A stretch of DNA of 26,007 bases. Source: a virus. The translations under genes and the position numbers were made by a program. Location of the stretch: the IMG/VR virus record IMGVR_UViG_3300044953_000300, positions 1 to 26,007 of that record. One strand, 5' to 3'. Shown piece after piece: positions 7,497-26,007 of the stretch. The notes beneath the pieces are model-generated. The model did no database searches. It was not told the origin of the DNA and was given only the letters and a program-made list of their open reading frames with translations. The first letter of the stretch is position 1; each line of letters opens with the position of its first letter.

Positions 7497-8921
7497 ATGA
7501 CATTTGTAGAATTAGTTCAAAAAATTGTAAATGAAGCACTAACATCGCCAGTGGGTAGATTAGATTTTAACCCACAATTACCTTCAGCTTCTAAAAAACG
7601 TTTACCGACAGATAGACCCGGAACGGGTAATACATCCACAACAAGAACCATTCGTAATATTTTTAGACTGTTAAAAAATGACAGTGCATTTTTTGGTGAA
7701 ATAAATGAAATCCTCAAAAAATATGCTCAAAGACAGCAAGTAAGTTATGAGTATGAAACTGATATTGTAAATTTAATTCAACAAGTTCAAGATAGTGAAA
7801 ATGATTTATTAGCATATAAAAAGGCATATCGTGAACACCAATTAGGTCGAACTGCACTTGAATCACCTGAAAAAATTAAAGATAAAATTAATACTTTGGA
7901 AGGTGTTAATAAGGATACTCAAGAAAAATTAAATGATATCCTAAAAACAATTGAAAAGTTTCCCGAAGAAAATGAAGATTTAGAGTTCACACTTCGTAAT
8001 AAACTTATTAAAGCGGTAAAAGCAGCTGCAGATAGATTGTTAAAAGAAATCGATACATCTGCAAAAAACGTATCTGAAGTTACATCATTGGATCAGCTTG
8101 ATAATCTTATTACAACAGATGAAGAATTGCAGCAAAATGCAACTAAACAAGCTGTTTTAGATTCACTCACAAAAGATACTGCAAAAGATAACGTTCTGTT
8201 AAGATATTTCCATAATGAGGAAAACAAATATCAAGACTTTATAAAAGGTCGTTCCTTTTCAGGTAAGTTAGCTGCTATTGAACAAAATAAGCAGTTTAAT
8301 ATGTTACCTCTTTCTGTATTCGCTAGGTTCTATAATTCTAGTGTTAAAGATGCAAGTTCTATTAAACTGTTAACAACTGTTGGTGCAAAAGCTCTTCAAG
8401 GCGGCTTTGCTGGGTCACAAGCTGGTAGAAAAGCTGTTGATAAACCATTAATTGACTTGAGAAAGTTAGTCGATAGAAATTTTGACAGTAAAGACCGAGG
8501 TGTTGAAAGACGTGCATTTGGATTAATTGACGCATCCTCCGCATCATCTGATAAAAAAGATAGACTCAAGCAAGTGGTTACACAAGTATTAAATGGTGAA
8601 ACACCACCAGCTACACTTGCTAATGTTATTTACAATGAATCTATTTTCGGTTTTGATATGCTTGTTGAAGATTTGTTGACAGAAGCTAAGAAAGGTGCTC
8701 GTTGCACTAAAGTAACAGGACAGCAACCATCATCACGCGCATCAAAAAAATATATGAGATGTGTGAGAGTTGATGGTAAGCTTAAGAGAATTCACTATGG
8801 TGACCCCAACTTAAGAATCAAGAAGTCTAATCCTAAGAAAAGGAAGTCTTTTAGAGCGCGTCATAAGTGCTCATCTGCTAAACCAGGAACCGCAAAATAT
8901 TACTCTTGTAAGAATTGGTAA
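7497..8921 (+). CDS. Putative virion/internal protein with C-terminal basic RARHKC-type motif
   Basis: The 474-residue protein starts at the ATG at 7497. It begins MTFVELVQKIVNEALTSP, an N-terminal helix with a possible cut site (VNE|A). Residues about 60-230 are strongly helical and charged, probably coiled coil. The last 70 residues form a compact basic module: RCVRVDGKLKRIHYGDPNLR, a Lys-rich KKSNPKKRKSF, RARHKC, and a final YYSCKNW. I recall very similar Cys/Trp-ended basic tails in many environmental phage proteins of unknown function. A DNA-contacting or head-internal role is plausible but unproven. It heads a plus-strand group of motif proteins. Confidence 0.55.
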   Translation: MTFVELVQKIVNEALTSPVGRLDFNPQLPSASKKRLPTDRPGTGNTSTTRTIRNIFRLLKNDSAFFGEINEILKKYAQRQQVSYEYETDIVNLIQQVQDSENDLLAYKKAYREHQLGRTALESPEKIKDKINTLEGVNKDTQEKLNDILKTIEKFPEENEDLEFTLRNKLIKAVKAAADRLLKEIDTSAKNVSEVTSLDQLDNLITTDEELQQNATKQAVLDSLTKDTAKDNVLLRYFHNEENKYQDFIKGRSFSGKLAAIEQNKQFNMLPLSVFARFYNSSVKDASSIKLLTTVGAKALQGGFAGSQAGRKAVDKPLIDLRKLVDRNFDSKDRGVERRAFGLIDASSASSDKKDRLKQVVTQVLNGETPPATLANVIYNESIFGFDMLVEDLLTEAKKGARCTKVTGQQPSSRASKKYMRCVRVDGKLKRIHYGDPNLRIKKSNPKKRKSFRARHKCSSAKPGTAKYYSCKNW

Positions 8922-18288: not shown

Positions 18289-19449
18289 ATGCCAAACATT
18301 AAGTTTTCAGAATTACCACTTGCTACAACTGTCGACGGTGATGATATTTTTACCCTGGTAGAACAACCCCAGCTCGTTAACAAAATTATCACATATCAGA
18401 CTCTTGCAAGTCATCTCACCGCTTCAACACCATGGTGGTCGATACCATCACAACAAACGTCTTTTGTTCGTTTATCTGGTGATACAATGACTGGGTATTT
18501 AACTCTTAATGCAAACCCAGTTAACAATTTACATGCAGCAACAAAACAATATGTAGATACGTTTGCAAGTACTTTAGATAGGGTACCAATTGGCATGGTA
18601 ATGTATTTTGCTGCAAGTGCGGCACCTACAGGTTGGTTAGCATGTGACGGTAGAATTTTAAATACAGCTTCGTTCCCTGATTTATTTGCTGTTATCGGTT
18701 ATACATATGGTGGTAGTGGTGTATCTTTTAAACTACCTGACTTGCGTGGTGAATTTTTAAGAGGTTGGGATGGCAGTGGTGTGCTAGCTGCACGTGGTGT
18801 GGATTCTAATCGTGTTTTTGGTAGTTCGCAAGCTGATATAATAAAGGGTCACACGCATAAAATACCTGTAGATTTACCACTTGCGTACGGGGGTGGTTCG
18901 ACCGGGTATACACAACGAGGTAATTTAGCATACCCACCAGGTGCAGAATTTACGTTAGCTCAAGCTAATAGTGGTACCGAAACACGCCCACGTAACGTTG
19001 CAATGTTGCCATGTATAAAATATTCTTCTGAAAGTCAAGTTTCGCAAATTGGGTTAAGTGCTCAGCAGCTAATTAATTACATAACCAGCTTGAGTTCATT
19101 AATACCAGCAGCTAAATCTGTAGCTAAAGCATGGGTTAACTTTAGTGGTGTGGGTTCAGGGGTAATTAGATCAAGCTTTAATGTCATCAGTATTACCAAA
19201 AACGGAACAGGTTGGTATTCCATATATTTTCCCAGTGGTGTGTTCACAGACCCAAATTATGTTGTAGCTAGTAGTTCAAGACAATACCCTGATGTGCAAA
19301 GCTATATTAGTGGTGTAGCTGGTATATCCTTTCCAGGCATGTCAGATCTGAATGTAGCAAAAACCACACTACGATGCGATGTCGGTATCGGCGGCGCGTT
19401 CACCCTCGGAGATTCAGATAGTGTAAGCTTCGTATTTTTTGGCAATTAA
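18289..19449 (+). CDS. Tail fibre with phage tail-collar domain and C-terminal receptor-binding-like domain
   Basis: The 386-residue fibre has clear sections. Residues 1-60 form an N-terminal attachment region. LSGDTMTGYLTL and NPVNNLHAATKQYVD (62-90) make up a fibre-shaft repeat common in tail fibres. Residues about 99-240 are a tail-collar domain: PIGMVMYF, PTGWLACDGR, LPDLRGEFLRGWD, GHTH (187-190) and RPRNVAMLPCIKY. From about 262 to the end, KAWVNFSGVGSG...SSFNVISITKNGTGWYSIYF is a beta domain often found at fibre tips. It probably acts as a trimer and contacts the host surface. The next gene looks like its assembly factor. Confidence 0.85.
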   Translation: MPNIKFSELPLATTVDGDDIFTLVEQPQLVNKIITYQTLASHLTASTPWWSIPSQQTSFVRLSGDTMTGYLTLNANPVNNLHAATKQYVDTFASTLDRVPIGMVMYFAASAAPTGWLACDGRILNTASFPDLFAVIGYTYGGSGVSFKLPDLRGEFLRGWDGSGVLAARGVDSNRVFGSSQADIIKGHTHKIPVDLPLAYGGGSTGYTQRGNLAYPPGAEFTLAQANSGTETRPRNVAMLPCIKYSSESQVSQIGLSAQQLINYITSLSSLIPAAKSVAKAWVNFSGVGSGVIRSSFNVISITKNGTGWYSIYFPSGVFTDPNYVVASSSRQYPDVQSYISGVAGISFPGMSDLNVAKTTLRCDVGIGGAFTLGDSDSVSFVFFGN

Positions 19450-19452
19450 ATT

Positions 19453-19863
19453 ATGATATACATTTTAACACCACTACAAAACAATAAATTAGCAGTAACC
19501 ATTCCATGTGTTGATTTGGAATTAGCAATCGCAGCGTTACCAACCAAAATATATAAGGTTGTTGAAACACTTAATATCAATGATGATTTTTTCGATGCAT
19601 ATGAGTTTGATCAAGACAAAGGCGCTGTAATTAATATTGAAAAAGCTAAAGATATTAAACGCAATCAATTTAGACAGTCTCGCAAACAATTACTCGAACA
19701 GTTAGATGTTGAATATATGAAAGCTATTGAAACATCTAATACTAATAAAAAGAAGTCTATTGTAGCGAAGAAACAAGAATTGAGAGATGTAACTAGCATT
19801 GATTTACCAGATGGTATAGATGAATTGGCTAAATTCTGGCCAGATGTCTTAAAAAGTGCTTAA
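19453..19863 (+). CDS. Tail fibre assembly/chaperone-like protein
   Basis: The 136-residue protein starts 3 bp after the fibre gene. Residues 1-65 form a small beta-rich part. Residues 68-136 are helical, with AKDIKRNQFRQSRKQLLEQLDVEYMKA, then KKQELRDVTSIDL and a final ELAKFWPDVL. The pattern K.ikR...R..R..lL..LD..ymkA...LRD...WP..L is familiar from small proteins placed right after fibre genes in aquatic phages and from tail-fibre assembly proteins. It likely helps the fibre trimerise or fold, or caps it. Stoichiometric presence in the virion is possible. Confidence 0.6.
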   Translation: MIYILTPLQNNKLAVTIPCVDLELAIAALPTKIYKVVETLNINDDFFDAYEFDQDKGAVINIEKAKDIKRNQFRQSRKQLLEQLDVEYMKAIETSNTNKKKSIVAKKQELRDVTSIDLPDGIDELAKFWPDVLKSA

Positions 19864-19870
19864 AACAAGC

Positions 19871-20116
19871 ATGCAGATTTACGATTTTACAACTCATACA
19901 TGCAGTATGGGTAATGTTTATCATTCAGAAAATGGTAATTCACGATTCAAATACTACGACGACGAAAAGCATCAAGTAGTTACATTAAATGAAAAGCCAG
20001 GTTGGCAAGTGAATAGATTTATCATACCACAACGACCAAAGAAGTTCTGGCATTGCGTTGAGAGTGATACACATCGAGTTAGTATTGGGCTGCATATACT
20101 TCCGAAGGTAGTTTAA
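19871..20116 (+). CDS. Small cupin/2OG-oxygenase-like beta-barrel protein
   Basis: The 81-residue protein starts at the ATG at 19871; an upstream GTG at 19856 would overlap the preceding gene. The protein is almost all beta, with PGWQVNRFIIPQRPKKFWHCVESDTHRVSIGLHI. A proline-flanked strand, HC(V/I)E and R(V/I)S(I/L) before a final strand recall the second half of double-stranded beta-helix enzymes such as 2OG/Fe(II) oxygenases. The first half with the HxD pair is missing, so it would be either a stand-alone mini-cupin or a remnant. It lies between the fibre chaperone and APS kinase. Function is unknown. Confidence 0.4.
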   Translation: MQIYDFTTHTCSMGNVYHSENGNSRFKYYDDEKHQVVTLNEKPGWQVNRFIIPQRPKKFWHCVESDTHRVSIGLHILPKVV

Positions 20117-20144: not shown

Positions 20145-20633
20145 ATGAATATTTGGCTATATGGCTTACCAAGTTCTGGTAAAACTACACTGTCTAATGA
20201 ATTATGTATTAGGTTACCTGAGTTGAAGCAGCTTGATGGTGATATAGTTCGTAAGACATTCGATGATAATTTAGGGTATTCAAAAGCTGATAGATTCGTT
20301 CAGCTAAAGCGAGTTGTTGATCTGTGTAACAATTTAAATGATGTGGGTGTAGATTGTATTGTATCAGTTATCACACCATATCGTGAATTTAGATCATATA
20401 TTAGAGAGCATCTTGAAAGTGTGAAGCTTGTATACGTAGATTGTTCTCCGGAAACTTGCGAACGACGGGACCCGAAAGGAATGTACAAAAAAGCTAGAAA
20501 CGGTGAGCTTAAAGAATTTACAGGTGTGTCTGGCACATTTGAATACCCATCAGTGGGTGAGTATGATTTCTTTATAAATACCGAAAACAATACTGTCAAT
20601 CAGTGTGTGGACTCAATTATCAAAAAACTTTGA
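20145..20633 (+). CDS. cysC: Adenylylsulfate (APS) kinase, CysC-like
   Basis: The 162-residue P-loop kinase phosphorylates APS with ATP to give PAPS, the sulfate donor for sulfotransferases. Seen: Walker A GLPSSGKT (7-14), LDGDIVRKTF with D31 and D33, LGYSKADR (43-50), VITPYREFR (75-83), and the lid RDPKGMYKKARNGELKEFTG (108-127), all in the order of APS kinases. The family's DGDNVR has Ile for Asn. It lacks the N-terminal extension of about 25 residues found in bacterial CysC, so it is slightly short. Its 3' end overlaps a convergent sulfotransferase gene by 21 bp. ATP sulfurylase is not in the window, so APS would have to come from the host. Confidence 0.85.
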   Translation: MNIWLYGLPSSGKTTLSNELCIRLPELKQLDGDIVRKTFDDNLGYSKADRFVQLKRVVDLCNNLNDVGVDCIVSVITPYREFRSYIREHLESVKLVYVDCSPETCERRDPKGMYKKARNGELKEFTGVSGTFEYPSVGEYDFFINTENNTVNQCVDSIIKKL

Positions 20634-21314
20634 CATGATTTTATAATCTAGTTCTTTATATCTATCAAAGAACGACTGGGGTATTCTATCTTTGAATTGT
20701 TGATATAGGTCACCATATGTATCAACATTGCGGTATCTAAACCCGTCACGTCCTGTCTCGTGAAGGTTGAGATGTGTTTCACATATACGTCGGAATTCTA
20801 AATATCGATTATCATCGAATAGTGTTTGATGTGTAACTACAGTTAAGCTTGGTGTCCCTGGGTAGTGAGACACACCTGTCTCCCTATTAAATGGTAATTT
20901 CCAAATATTGAGACCGGTTAACTGTTCTAGCTGCTTGAAATTATAGTCATATGAACACCAATCAAACGAACCCCAATCAAATGATGTAAAATGATCAACC
21001 ATGTCATCTATATTGTCTATGATAGGTTCTTTTGCATATTCATATGGATAATAACCAGCTATCGTTTTGAAGTCCTTGATATACGCTGACATAAAGATAT
21101 CAGTTGGTTTACGGATGCAAGTTATAACATGATCAAACAAGATATCTTTGAAAAGTTGTATAGGTGTAGTATGGTCTTTAACGATCATATCAGTTGCTGT
21201 ATTAGTACCCGATAGCTTGTTCGCGAACGTAATTTGTACGTTGTGAGTTCTTGCGACTAAATGCGTCATAAAACTAGAACCACATCGAAATGGTGTATAT
21301 ATTAAATATTTCAT
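20613..21314 (-). CDS. PAPS-dependent sulfotransferase
   Basis: The 233-residue protein starts at the ATG at 21314, preceded by AGGTG; the GTG at 21317 is an alternative. Two PAPS-binding signatures are visible. The 5'-phosphosulfate loop is YTPFRCGSSFMTHL (6-19), matching the prokaryotic TPRSGST type. The 3'-phosphate motif is CIRKPTDIFMSAY with R68 and S76, the R-x7-S spacing of the family. The length suits compact bacterial carbohydrate sulfotransferases. It would move sulfate from PAPS to a hydroxyl on a sugar or another acceptor, which cannot be named. It converges on the APS kinase gene that would make its donor, the strongest clue to a shared pathway. No signal peptide is evident, so it likely acts in the cytoplasm. 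Confidence 0.72.
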   Translation of the reverse strand: MKYLIYTPFRCGSSFMTHLVARTHNVQITFANKLSGTNTATDMIVKDHTTPIQLFKDILFDHVITCIRKPTDIFMSAYIKDFKTIAGYYPYEYAKEPIIDNIDDMVDHFTSFDWGSFDWCSYDYNFKQLEQLTGLNIWKLPFNRETGVSHYPGTPSLTVVTHQTLFDDNRYLEFRRICETHLNLHETGRDGFRYRNVDTYGDLYQQFKDRIPQSFFDRYKELDYKIMSKFFDN

Positions 21315-21337
21315 CACCTATATGTATTATATATAGA

Positions 21338-22273
21338 ATGTTACTTATGCAGAATAACCACAATATACAACAACATAAAAAACCATTTATTAGGTGGGGT
21401 GGGGGGTTAGGTGACGCGATCAAGTGGTATTGTATATGCGAACCAGCAGTATTACGTGCTGCTGAACTCAATGATACAATAATACTAAGTTGTAACAGTC
21501 ATAATAGGTTTCAAACTGAATTGCTAACGCTAGCTCCGTATGGTGGTAAATTCCAAACTTTTACACCTCTTGATGAGCTTCGAGATGAAGAAGAGGCTAA
21601 ATATTACCATAGCTTACGGTCACCAGACAACGACAAGTTTCGAGCAGAACACTTAGATCTTAGATATCTCATAAAGAATGGAATCAACCCTAATGATACA
21701 TATATTATAGGTGGTCATCACGTATTACCCGGCGAAACATATAAGTTATATCCAACAGCTGCAGATAAAATTATCATTAATAGTATCACAGACAAACCTA
21801 TTATTGTGATAGCACCCGGAGCTAGCGAAAGTACACGTCTGATTCCAGATAGTATATTGCAGCGTATTGTTAGTCACCTTGATGTTAATGAATATAATGT
21901 AGTTTTAGTTGGTAGATCTAATTCCAATATTAATAGTCGATATAGCGGGTGTGGTCACACTACAACACTACCTGGTGTTATCAATCTAGTTGATCAGATC
22001 ACAATTCAAGGTACGCTCAGCTTGATTGATCAAGCACATGGTTTAATATGCAGTGATAGTTCATTATTTCACTTCGGTGCTGTGAAACGCATACCAATGT
22101 TAGTATTGGTACCATCGAAGACCAATAAAATATACGGTCTAATCGATATAAATGACAGACTTGAAAATTACTTCAGTGTATTTAGCTCGCATAACGTTGT
22201 TGTGGTTGATTTTGCTGATTTTTGTGTTACAAATGTTAACAATTTCAACATACACGTTTCGCACCAATCATAA
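21338..22273 (+). CDS. GT9-like (heptosyltransferase-type) GT-B glycosyltransferase
   Basis: The 311-residue protein starts at the ATG at 21338 (ATG 21347 also possible). The longer frame from 21290 would overlap the divergent sulfotransferase. RWGGGLGDAIKWY (19-31) fits the Gly-rich start of GT9 heptosyltransferases. The C-terminal half has PIIVIAPGASESTR, EYNVVLVGRSN, and LVDQITIQGTLSLIDQAHGLICSDSSLFHFGA, matching the GT9 pattern G..sl.e...l...a...i..DSg..HlA. GT9 enzymes transfer heptose or related sugars to lipopolysaccharide or other acceptors. Donor and acceptor cannot be read from this sequence. The gene is divergent from the sulfotransferase and its end overlaps the convergent methyltransferase by 29 bp. 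Confidence 0.65.
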   Translation: MLLMQNNHNIQQHKKPFIRWGGGLGDAIKWYCICEPAVLRAAELNDTIILSCNSHNRFQTELLTLAPYGGKFQTFTPLDELRDEEEAKYYHSLRSPDNDKFRAEHLDLRYLIKNGINPNDTYIIGGHHVLPGETYKLYPTAADKIIINSITDKPIIVIAPGASESTRLIPDSILQRIVSHLDVNEYNVVLVGRSNSNINSRYSGCGHTTTLPGVINLVDQITIQGTLSLIDQAHGLICSDSSLFHFGAVKRIPMLVLVPSKTNKIYGLIDINDRLENYFSVFSSHNVVVVDFADFCVTNVNNFNIHVSHQS

Positions 22274-22736
22274 ACGAATTGTTGAGATCAACACCACTGG
22301 AGAATACCGGTGCAAACTGGTTGTGGGTGAAATAATCAGTCAAAATCTGCGGTGTTAATATGTGGATATGTTTGGTATTATTCCATGGTCTCCAATATTC
22401 TTGACTATAGTCTGGTAAGTATAAAAATATAACACCACCGATCTTTAGTCTGGTAGTCCAGTAGTTTAAAACTGTAACCCAATTATCGACATGTTCTAAA
22501 CAATGAGATGAAAATATATAGTCTAAATCAGTATATGGTATATTCAATGCATCATATTCATTGAGAGCTGGGTCGATCGGATACGCTCCCGGAAAACACC
22601 AATCTAACTTCTTACACCCAACATCCACACCAACACCACGGCAGAACTGTTTTGCATATGGTAAAGCAAATTGCGCAGCATTACCCTCTGTTTGAAACTT
22701 CGGATAAACTTTGTTATTGAATGTTACTATATCCAT
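22245..22736 (-). CDS. SAM-dependent methyltransferase (class I)
   Basis: The 163-residue protein has a Rossmann-type methyltransferase core. GVGVDVGC (34-41) is motif I, AYPIDP (51-56) the acidic strand-2 region, DYIFSSHCLEHVDNW (72-86) the family's post-motif region, and LKIGGVIFLYLPD (97-109) the motif with its Gly-Gly turn. The CLEHV...W....L...LK.GG.i...lP pattern matches methyltransferases that act on sugars and small metabolites more than DNA methyltransferases, and no NPPY/DPPY motif is present. It is short because the N-terminal helices are reduced. Its start lies inside the GT4 gene (23-bp overlap), so the two are translated together. Methylation of a glycan is inferred from context. 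Confidence 0.72.
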   Translation of the reverse strand: MDIVTFNNKVYPKFQTEGNAAQFALPYAKQFCRGVGVDVGCKKLDWCFPGAYPIDPALNEYDALNIPYTDLDYIFSSHCLEHVDNWVTVLNYWTTRLKIGGVIFLYLPDYSQEYWRPWNNTKHIHILTPQILTDYFTHNQFAPVFSSGVDLNNSFMIGAKRVC

Positions 22737-23892
22737 CTGTTAATATCTTAGACCACCATAGTGCAATATAATCCCAATTATAATTAAGTACATTTTGCTG
22801 TGCTTTGGCTGATTTATTTACTAGATCGGTTGTAGTTGTGTTATAAATAACATGCGCAGCTAATTCAGCATCAACGTAAGGCCAATATTTATTTTCATAT
22901 AAGACACTATTTTTAGTTGGAAGAAAAGTGCATGTTTCATCAGAGAATATTTCCTCAAAACTCGTATGTTTAGGCACTGCAACTGGGGTGCCACATGCTG
23001 CAGCTTCTGTTGTTGTTAACCCCCAACCTTCACCATGCGATGTGGTTATAACAAGATCTGATGCGCTATAGATTTTAGCTAACAACTCTTTGCTGCAATT
23101 ATATTTACTGAAGTTATCTCCAAACAGTGGATCTGCAAATATAACATTACGTAGTAAGTTTAGATCAGCTGCTTTTGCCTTAATATTTAACCCAATATTA
23201 GGGTTAGGGTTCATATGAAGATATAGCTTGTATTTAGGATCTAGTTTTAGTAATTCAGCTAACACATATAATGAAGTGAATGGATCTTTTCGATATGAGT
23301 TAGAATTAACGTTAGTTATTAAAAAATCATCATCTGTTATCTGTGAGAATAAATCACATCTGCACTGATATCTATTATAGCTTGTATTATACACCTCATG
23401 CTCAACACCGTGCGGTGTAACGTATATTGGTTTTTTGGTATGTTTTTGAATTTCATATGCACCAAACTGAGTATATGCAACTGGGACATCGACACGTGAT
23501 AAGAAGTCTCTATCTTCAGGTGTGGTATATGAATCGACCGGTATATACGCTATTATTTTGAGTGAATTTGTTTCTCTGATCTTATCAATTATAGGTGCTA
23601 ATACTTTTAATCTACACGAATCGTGTAATACCCACATCACGATTGGTGTTTTGAAATAGCTCAAAAACTCGTAAAATTTCTTAAGATTAGCCTCAGACTG
23701 CCATGACGAACCGGGGTTACCTGGGTACAATTTGCAGTTATAGTTATGGGGTATGTTACCATATCCTAATCCCCAGAAATGTATTTTATCACGAAACGGC
23801 AACCTTGTTACTATATTTCTAGTAACACATGCGAACCCAGTATCAAGTGTTGGTGAATCACCAAAAAACACATAATTTACGTCACCTACCAT
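22714..23892 (-). CDS. GT4-family glycosyltransferase
   Basis: The 392-residue GT-B enzyme has the features of GT4 retaining transferases. The N-terminal Rossmann domain opens VNYVFFGDSPTLDTGF, with a Gly-rich acceptor-side region. An inter-domain segment reads YVTPHGVEHEVY (157-168). A nucleotide-sugar phosphate-binding NSNSYRKDP sits near 196-204. The E-x7-E motif lies in HGEGWGLTTTEAAACGTPV (286-304; E288 and E296), followed by PKHTSFEEIF. It would transfer a sugar from a nucleotide donor onto an unknown acceptor. The gene lies 43 bp downstream of the repeat-fibre gene on the same strand and overlaps the methyltransferase gene, so the three probably form one operon. Confidence 0.85.
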   Translation of the reverse strand: MVGDVNYVFFGDSPTLDTGFACVTRNIVTRLPFRDKIHFWGLGYGNIPHNYNCKLYPGNPGSSWQSEANLKKFYEFLSYFKTPIVMWVLHDSCRLKVLAPIIDKIRETNSLKIIAYIPVDSYTTPEDRDFLSRVDVPVAYTQFGAYEIQKHTKKPIYVTPHGVEHEVYNTSYNRYQCRCDLFSQITDDDFLITNVNSNSYRKDPFTSLYVLAELLKLDPKYKLYLHMNPNPNIGLNIKAKAADLNLLRNVIFADPLFGDNFSKYNCSKELLAKIYSASDLVITTSHGEGWGLTTTEAAACGTPVAVPKHTSFEEIFSDETCTFLPTKNSVLYENKYWPYVDAELAAHVIYNTTTTDLVNKSAKAQQNVLNYNWDYIALWWSKILTDGYSNIQ

Positions 23893-23935: not shown

Positions 23936-26007
23936 TTATGCAATTTTAAGTGTACCGGAGTCATTCCAAAGAGTACCTACTGGTAAGCCAGCAGATAATG
24001 TTGGTAATCCCAAGAACGTAACATATTCAGTTGCTGTTAGTGTAGCGGTCCTGGTGCCAATTGCCACATTAACACCGCCACTCACAAACATGTTTGATGA
24101 GAATATACCCCAATTACCACGTACTGCAGACTCTGCTGTTATGCTATTAACATATGTGTGATTTTCTGTGCTAGCATTTAAGTTAGATCCTAACACGAAT
24201 GCATTGAATGCAGTTGCTGTGTTATTCGTTCCACCAACGATACCAGATTTAATACCACTCACATTGTTAGCAGACCCACCACCAATATATGTAAAATCAC
24301 CAGATGTGAAGTTAGATAAACCACCCACAATGGTACTATATGCACCACTTACGTTATTTCTATTACCACCAGCTACTGTGCTGTAGTTATTCGATGCAAC
24401 GTTACTATTACCACCAGCTACTGTGCTGTATGGTGCACTAGCTTGGTTATAATAACCACCACCAACAAAACTTGTATGACCACCAGCTATATTCGTATTA
24501 CCACCAGCTACTGTGCTGTATGGTGCACTAGCTTGGTTATAATAACCACCACCAACAAAACTTGTATCACCACTAGCTTGGTTATAATAACCACCAGCTA
24601 CTGTGCTGTAGTTATTCGATGCAACGTTACTATTACCACCAGCTACTGTGCTGTATTGTCCACTAGCTCGGTTATAATAACCACCACCAACAAAACTTGT
24701 ATCACCACTTGATGTATTACCAATACCACCACCAACAAAACTTATATCACCACTAGCTTGGTTACTATTACCACCAGCTACTGTTGCAAATTCTTCATAC
24801 ACGATATTACCTAATCCCCCACCAACAAATGAATACAACTCACTAGCTATGTTACTTAATCCACCACCAATAGTGCTATATAGTCCTATAGCACTATTGC
24901 TTAGACCACCAGCAATAGTAGATGCATAGTTACTAGCTATATTCATATCACCACCAGCTACTGTGCTGTATGGTGCACTAGCTTGGTTATTACTACCACC
25001 ACCAACAAAACTTATATCACCACTAGCTTGGTTACCAATACCACCAGCTACTGTGCTGTAGTTATTCGATGCAACGTTACTATTACCACCAGCTACTGTG
25101 CTGTATGGTGCACTAGCTCGGTTATAATAACCACCACCAACAAAACTTATATCACCACTAGCTTGGTTAGCAATACCACCAGCTACTGTGCTGTATGGTG
25201 CACGAGCTTGGTTATTAACACCACCACCAACAAAACTTGTATCACCACTTGATGTATTACCAGTACCACCAGCTACTGTGCTGTATTGTCCACTAGCTTG
25301 GTTACCAGTACCACCACCAACAAAACTTGTACCACCACTTGATGTATTACCATTACCACCAGCTACTGTGCTGTATTGTCCACTAGCTTGGTTACCAGTA
25401 CCACCACCAACAAAACTTATATCACCACTAGCTTGGTTACCAACACCACCAGCTATTGTGCTGTAGTTATTTGATGCAACGTTACTATTACCACCAGCTA
25501 TCACACTAGTATGGCCAGAAGCTTTATTTCTGTACCCACCACCAATTGTACTAAATTGGCCGGTTGCACGACCACTGGACCCACCAGCTATTGTGGAAAA
25601 TATATTAGTGATAATATTACCACTACCACCACCAACAAATGTATGACCGGTTAGTGCGTTATTATAACAACCACCAACGACAGTTGCATGGTCATCATTC
25701 GATATATTAAAGCTACCGCCACCAACAAAACTTGTATTACCACTTGATGTATTACCATTACCACCACCAACAAAACTTGTATTACCACTTGATGTATTAC
25801 CAGCACCACCACCAACAAAACTTATATCGCCACTAGCTTGGTTATAATAACCACCAGCTACTGTGCTGTAGTTATTCGATGCAACGTTACTATCACCACC
25901 AGCTACTGTGCTGTATGGTGCACTAGCTTGGTTATTACTACCACCACCAACAAAACTTGTATCACCACTAGCTTGGTTACCAACACCACCAGCTATTGTG
26001 CTGTAGT
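23936..26007 (-). CDS. Giant repeat fibre/adhesin with YadA-head-like 15-residue repeats (5' end outside the window)
   Basis: The frame is open from the right edge to TAA at 23936-23938, so at least 689 residues are visible and the start is beyond base 26007. A GTG at 25504 is internal. About 40 tandem 15-residue units follow the pattern xxN.ASG.YSTVAGG or xxN.ASGDTSFVGGG, matching the left-handed parallel beta-roll repeats of YadA-type trimeric adhesin heads, here in a phage. The last 90 residues differ and form a C-terminal cap ending LPVGTLWNDSGTLKIA, similar to endings I recall in phage fibres. No membrane anchor or S74-type self-cleaving chaperone is visible. Likely a long trimeric tail fibre contacting the host. 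GT4 and methyltransferase genes follow directly. Confidence 0.8.
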   Translation of the reverse strand, partial: YSTIAGGVGNQASGDTSFVGGGSNNQASAPYSTVAGGDSNVASNNYSTVAGGYYNQASGDISFVGGGAGNTSSGNTSFVGGGNGNTSSGNTSFVGGGSFNISNDDHATVVGGCYNNALTGHTFVGGGSGNIITNIFSTIAGGSSGRATGQFSTIGGGYRNKASGHTSVIAGGNSNVASNNYSTIAGGVGNQASGDISFVGGGTGNQASGQYSTVAGGNGNTSSGGTSFVGGGTGNQASGQYSTVAGGTGNTSSGDTSFVGGGVNNQARAPYSTVAGGIANQASGDISFVGGGYYNRASAPYSTVAGGNSNVASNNYSTVAGGIGNQASGDISFVGGGSNNQASAPYSTVAGGDMNIASNYASTIAGGLSNSAIGLYSTIGGGLSNIASELYSFVGGGLGNIVYEEFATVAGGNSNQASGDISFVGGGIGNTSSGDTSFVGGGYYNRASGQYSTVAGGNSNVASNNYSTVAGGYYNQASGDTSFVGGGYYNQASAPYSTVAGGNTNIAGGHTSFVGGGYYNQASAPYSTVAGGNSNVASNNYSTVAGGNRNNVSGAYSTIVGGLSNFTSGDFTYIGGGSANNVSGIKSGIVGGTNNTATAFNAFVLGSNLNASTENHTYVNSITAESAVRGNWGIFSSNMFVSGGVNVAIGTRTATLTATEYVTFLGLPTLSAGLPVGTLWNDSGTLKIA
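24209..26007 (-). repeat. Coding 45-bp tandem repeat array (about 40 units)
   Basis: Within the fibre gene, 45-bp units encode 15 residues each. Unit sequences fall into a few near-identical classes that recur in changing order (for example NSNVASNNYSTVAGG, YYNQASGDTSFVGGG, TGNQASGQYSTVAGG). A block of more than 60 bp that includes GTTATTCGATGCAACGTTAC recurs almost exactly near 24367, 24590 and 25042, and with small changes near 25450 and 25855. Units near 24800-24950 and 25510-25700 are more diverged. There are no spacers, so this is not a CRISPR array. Confidence 0.9.

Follow-up and report, generated by a model that had tools for sequence, protein, structure and literature searches.

A probable phage glycan-sulfation cassette: an APS kinase gene convergent with a gene for a putative PAPS sulfotransferase

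Does a phage that carries an APS kinase gene (cysC) use it to support the sulfur assimilation of its host, or to sulfate a surface? Phage cysC has been interpreted in terms of assimilatory sulfate reduction, with sulfotransferases going unmentioned in the main text of the studies concerned (PMC10914622, PMC9529941, PMC8190135). The question is raised anew by a virus locus in which, according to an earlier note, an APS kinase gene faces a gene for a protein with PAPS-binding signatures. That note proposed a phage-directed sulfation system, suggested searching both proteins against the APS kinase and sulfotransferase families and surveying phage genomes for the pair, and regarded homologous phages carrying either gene alone as evidence against it.

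The window and its APS kinase

The window, i.e., the whole stretch of 26,007 bases analysed here, is a linear virus record and a fragment. Family scans identified clamp loader, dUTPase, baseplate wedge and tail-collar fibre genes in it, as in a myovirus-like phage. The pair formed by cysC and the putative sulfotransferase gene opens a cassette (GT9-like, methyltransferase, GT4) that is flanked by tail-fibre and adhesin-like genes (Table 1). An 86-aa ORF at 19856-20116, which matches no family and is not at that place in the closest phage relative (L002, see below), separates the fibre-assembly gene from cysC. On the far side, the minus strand from 23936 to 26007 holds a long adhesin-like fibre region of the UspA1 type, which contains numerous nearly identical repeats and reaches the end of the contig.

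Table 1. Features of the window, and nucleotidylyltransferase (NTase) genes at other viral cysC loci.
Feature	Position	Strand	Basis
Tail collar-domain fibre gene, upstream of the cassette	18289..19449	+	PF07484 E 4e-21; PHROG tail collar fibre
Tail-fibre-assembly-like gene	19453..19863	+	weak PHROG tail fibre assembly matches; synteny and 77% identity with L002
cysC-like APS kinase, 162 aa	20145..20633	+	PF01583; TIGR00455 above cut-off; PDB APS kinases
P-loop GLPSSGKTT, CysC residues 7-15	20163..20189	+	alignments
DGDxxR APS/Mg site, CysC residues 31-36	20235..20252	+	DEGxxR in relative L002
RDPKGMYKKAR motif, CysC residues 108-118	20466..20498	+	alignments
Probable PAPS sulfotransferase (ST), 233 aa, convergent with cysC	20613..21314	-	motifs only; no profile match
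5'-PSB-like motif TPFRCGSS	21273..21296	-	sequence; motif-pair background test
3'-PB motif R68-x7-S76 (RKPTDIFMS)	21087..21113	-	sequence; IMG/VR pattern test
GT9 (heptosyltransferase-like) glycosyltransferase	21347..22273	+	PF01075 E 2.7e-6; ORF open from 21290
SAM methyltransferase (MTase)	22245..22736	-	PF13489/PF08241
GT4 glycosyltransferase	22714..23892	-	PF00534 E 5e-11; PHROG 2170 E 1e-33; N-terminal remnant in L002
Segment missing from syntenic relatives L002/L003 (ST, GT9, MTase, most of GT4)	20641..23760	no strand	DNA alignment, both edges
UspA1-repeat/beta-roll adhesin-like fibre ORF, far side of the cassette	23936..25504	-	PF18792 E 1.8e-19
Fused NTase/CysC ORFs	L054:9989-10795, L057:9659-10501, L089:9905-10951, L119:9914-10984		
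NTase adjoining cysC	L052, L055, L059, L063, L073, L084, L088, L112, L123, L126		

By its family and its active-site residues, the plus-strand protein is shown to be an APS kinase, with the corresponding activity predicted. The Pfam search for APS kinases matched it with 136.2 bits against a cut-off of 21.1 (PF01583, E 1.2e-39), TIGR00455 scored 145.9 bits against a cut-off of 138.7, and every match in a PDB sequence search was an APS kinase. In the alignment, the P-loop, DGDxxR, LGF/Y, DR, RDPKG and FTG elements are intact, while a single site that is usually N is occupied by Q; D31, G32 and D33 are each conserved in 51 of the 52 CysCs compared. These matches, together with GLPSSGKTT, DGDxxR, RDPKGMYKKAR and FTG, bear out the complete kinase motif set of the earlier note. 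A chance overlap of ORFs was rejected, the identity of the kinase being beyond doubt.

One segment of the kinase departs from the usual pattern, with VQLKR in place of ENIRR, which could be taken to mean that this APS-kinase homologue makes another 3'-phosphorylated donor, from which its partner would transfer a group other than sulfate. A precedent exists in Campylobacter jejuni, where Cj1415 to Cj1418 yield CDP-phosphoramidate 3'-phosphate (PMC11800397); Cj1415, the CDP-phosphoramidate kinase, resembles the window kinase in being an APS-kinase homologue encoded in a surface-glycan cluster and acting on a donor that becomes 3'-phosphorylated, and differs in the donor itself. However, the window kinase lies above the APS-kinase equivalog cut-off and below that of NF004041, and at the other conserved motif positions compared it has the usual residues or conservative replacements. 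Moreover, the neighbours of cysC across phages belong to PAPS sulfotransferase families, whereas the partners of Cj1415 (Cj1416-1418-type genes: glutamine kinase, cytidylyltransferase, amidase) were not recognised in the 26-kb window fragment by the family scans run. We regard such an alternative donor as very improbable.

A convergent protein with two PAPS-binding motifs

The minus-strand gene starts at an ATG at 21314 (giving 233 aa) or at a GTG at 21317, and its end shares 21 bp (20613-20633) with that of the kinase gene, to which it is convergent; ORFs and overlap were thus found where the earlier note had placed them. Both signatures that it had reported are likewise present in the protein, TPFRCGSS and R68-x7-S76 (IRKPTDIFMSAY). 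The former is a variant 5'-PSB loop near the N-terminus, following the first predicted strand, and the latter corresponds to the 3'-PB motif RxPxxxxxS. To assess the second motif, a degenerate DNA pattern fitting its window version was searched in IMG/VR, where it retrieved 36 loci, and the in-frame ORFs of all 36 match PF03567; the 3'-PB motif is therefore not noise. The motif pair occurred in none of 200,000 shuffles and in none of 4,283 other (non-sulfotransferase) phage ORFs, the regular expression having been written with the window in view.

Beyond these motifs, the protein is hard to place. Searches of Pfam (up to E 10), PHROGs, NCBIfam and the PDB sequences gave no match, and the profiles PF03567, PF13469 and PF00685 left it unmatched, so the sulfotransferase-family search came back empty. 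Homologues were found neither by searching viral and genome contigs for exact 8-mers, nor by tblastn in phages and plasmids, nor with the mixed alignment A2 or a motif pattern in genome contigs. When aligned with phage PF03567 sulfotransferases using hhalign, the 22-residue stretch around the 3'-PB motif alone aligns, and no better than in shuffles in which the motif was kept. AlphaFold reached a pLDDT of 34 from the single sequence and of 53 with 15 sequences, 14 of which are phage sulfotransferases. Foldseek returned non-significant matches to this low-confidence model (E of at least 0.14), with several PAPS sulfotransferases in the top 50.

At face value, these results might suggest that the ORF is not a sulfotransferase, and that its motifs arose by chance or belong to another fold. 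This we consider quite improbable, given the specificity of the 3'-PB pattern (36/36). In addition, the low-confidence model puts both motifs at sulfotransferase-like positions, each surrounded by a predicted strand-loop-helix, and the ORF adjoins an APS kinase gene, a place where sulfotransferases are over-represented (see below). The best phmmer match of the window protein among 4,421 ORFs, albeit weak, is itself a sulfotransferase on a contig that also encodes CysC. Altogether, the two motifs and the context make the 233-aa protein a probable PAPS sulfotransferase, a description that we adopt because of the motif specificity (36/36 PF03567; motif pair absent from the background). We keep it out of PF03567, PF13469 and PF00685, because it matches none of these profiles and the hhalign alignment covers the motif only; it is thus placed in no Pfam family. 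The identity given in the earlier note accordingly stands at the level of the motifs, while the protein as a whole has no profile match.

Linkage of cysC and sulfotransferase genes in phages

The survey set consisted of viral contigs with CysC relatives, from which the best 80 of 224 were retained by likeness to the window CysC; 50 contigs of these 80 (7.8 Mb, several of them fragments) were scanned with profiles. PF03567 was present in 19 of the 50 and PF13469 in 18, so that 36 encode a sulfotransferase of either family. Among 50 random viral contigs used as a control, which are shorter than the cysC contigs, only two had a sulfotransferase, both of PF03567. Because of this difference in length, the test of distances within contigs is the stronger one: a sulfotransferase gene lies at most 3 kb from cysC in 25 contigs, against 2.9 expected under random placement (maximum 10 in 20,000 draws). 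After de-duplication by clustering the CysCs at 90% identity (41 clusters), sulfotransferases remain in 28 clusters, and at most 3 kb away in 18, against 2.4 expected (maximum 10 in 100,000 draws). The proximity of the two genes is thus recurrent, and the functional pairing put forward in the earlier note agrees with a strong linkage in unrelated phages. Several pairs are adjacent or overlapping on the same strand. The linkage could partly reflect the residence of both genes in glycan islands. Relatives of other cassette genes occur in similar settings: the cysC-sulfotransferase cluster of L115/L118 includes a methyltransferase that shares 55% identity with that of the window, and in L081 a relative of the window GT4 adjoins cysC and a sulfotransferase gene.

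Under the published view (PMC10914622, PMC9529941, PMC8190135), cysC alone would be an auxiliary metabolic gene boosting host assimilatory sulfate reduction, by providing PAPS for CysH, and its neighbour would be unrelated. Yet PF01507 (CysH, PAPS reductase) was matched in 2 of the 50 cysC contigs, one of them above the cut-off, compared with 36 for the sulfotransferases, mostly nearby; in the window, the family scans run recognised no PAPS reductase. With CysH this rare and sulfotransferases this common, the sulfate-assimilation reading of phage cysC does not fit; as an account of the window it was rejected on the near absence of CysH from cysC contigs, and we deem it unlikely. The same counts contradict the remark of the earlier note that phage genes for PAPS use are usually reductases. 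Since the kinase gene is usually accompanied by sulfotransferase genes and very rarely by the gene for sulfate reduction, phage cysC probably serves surface sulfation rather than sulfur nutrition.

Phages with cysC and no sulfotransferase gene, which would favour assimilation, do exist in the closest relative, L002 (a 75-kb contig), and in L003, which is 99.98% identical to it. L002 is syntenic with the window, its baseplate and tail genes being mostly 73-88% identical, and it retains cysC (78% identity) directly 3' of the fibre-assembly gene. Searches of the L002 contig with the window protein, PF03567 or PF13469 found no sulfotransferase elsewhere. According to the DNA alignment, however, both relatives lack any counterpart of a segment of about 3.1 kb of the window (Table 1), with clean edges and a persisting GT4 stump (cysC at L002:8001-8489, GT4 remnant region at 8502-8624; L003 is identical here). 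Because of these edges and this stump, a deletion in the L002 lineage is the simplest reading. Furthermore, the L002 CysC has LDEGVVRK where LDGDxVRK is expected, the sole change from DGD to DEG among the 52 CysCs, and this loss of DGD argues against a role in assimilation. Between the window and L002, cysC has a dN/dS of 0.14/1.23; at so low a ratio, the L002 gene is no long-standing pseudogene, and any decay must be recent. For L002 and L003, in which cysC does occur alone, the best interpretation is thus that the segment was lost recently and that cysC has since been decaying; an absence of linkage was rejected. The DEG variant is what would be expected of a kinase that worked for the lost cassette, although a single case is no proof of this.

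Three further loci deserve mention. In L015 (4028-4828) and L047 (5630-6430), a sulfotransferase domain stands in the same ORF behind a tail-fibre-assembly-like N-terminal segment starting with MKIFAQLDSNN, and these ORFs sit downstream of fibre-type genes; they may be another sign of sulfation linked to tail fibres. In the uncultured 462-kb phage LR756500.1, CysC (112884-113285) and a PF03567 sulfotransferase (134038-134607) are encoded about 21 kb apart.

A predicted sulfation pathway and its relation to known systems

In our reading, which we hold to be likely, the locus is a phage glycan-sulfation cassette. The window kinase would phosphorylate APS to PAPS, and the convergent sulfotransferase would use this PAPS to transfer sulfate onto a glycan or another acceptor, itself built or decorated by the products of the adjoining GT9, GT4 and methyltransferase genes. 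The APS is presumably host-derived, since PF01467, the candidate family for an ATP-sulfurylase partner, was not found in the window or in L002. As the cassette sits amid tail-fibre and adhesin-like fibre genes, the sulfated product would most likely be carried by the virion fibres or by the envelope of the infected cell. We infer the enzyme activities, the use of PAPS by the window protein and the acceptor from sequence and context; the convergent orientation of the kinase and sulfotransferase genes, which do not form one operon, counts against the pathway.

The chemistry predicted here, from APS to PAPS to a sulfated acceptor, is that of cellular CysDNC, or PAPSS, acting with carbohydrate sulfotransferases, from which the window differs by having no ATP-sulfurylase candidate of the PF01467 type. 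Like the phage auxiliary metabolic genes already described (PMC10914622, PMC9529941), the viral kinase gene of the window codes for a CysC-family APS kinase; those were published as sulfate assimilation genes, whereas the window and most of the surveyed phages display a sulfotransferase and glycan context in place of CysH. Phage sulfotransferases of PF13469 are known from OM43 phages and from Synechococcus phage S-SRM01, where their function was called unclear (PMC10580990). Like these and like the PF03567 proteins of phages, the window protein would be a phage-encoded PAPS-dependent sulfotransferase (putatively so), but neither profile recognises it, and it comes with an adjacent kinase of its own. 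In the open-access literature, we found no paper on the pairing of phage cysC with a sulfotransferase or a nucleotidyltransferase gene.

If correct, this reading points to viruses that provide the PAPS for sulfating surface glycans themselves, which would be relevant to adsorption, superinfection exclusion and host defence. Because the gene for the enzyme that makes the donor is adjacent, the role of phage sulfotransferases (PMC10580990) becomes testable. Phage cysC is also counted as a sulfur-cycling auxiliary gene, and such ecological inferences may need revision, because most of the surveyed phage cysC genes sit with sulfotransferase and glycan genes.

Finally, a HIGH-superfamily nucleotidylyltransferase of about 125 aa (PF01467) is adjacent to cysC or fused with it at 40 of 79 viral cysC loci. 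The fusions occur in both orders, CysC-NTase (L089/L096/L097, L119, L054) and NTase-CysC (L057). In profile searches, the mini NTase is nearest to archaeal NMN adenylyltransferase, far below the family cut-off, and its nearest solved relatives are likewise archaeal; its conserved core comprises FiGRxQPxHxGH, vRD, IPDIxxVxxGRxVGY and ISaTxIR. ATP sulfurylase is a member of this superfamily too, which makes the mini NTase a candidate miniature ATP sulfurylase completing a viral PAPS synthase. More tentatively, then, phage cysC in general might belong to a viral sulfation pathway complete in itself, in which the mini NTase would act as ATP sulfurylase, CysC would make PAPS and the linked sulfotransferases would sulfate surface glycans of the phage or the host; of this pathway, the window phage would carry the part made up of kinase, sulfotransferase and glycan genes, and it would borrow its APS from the host.
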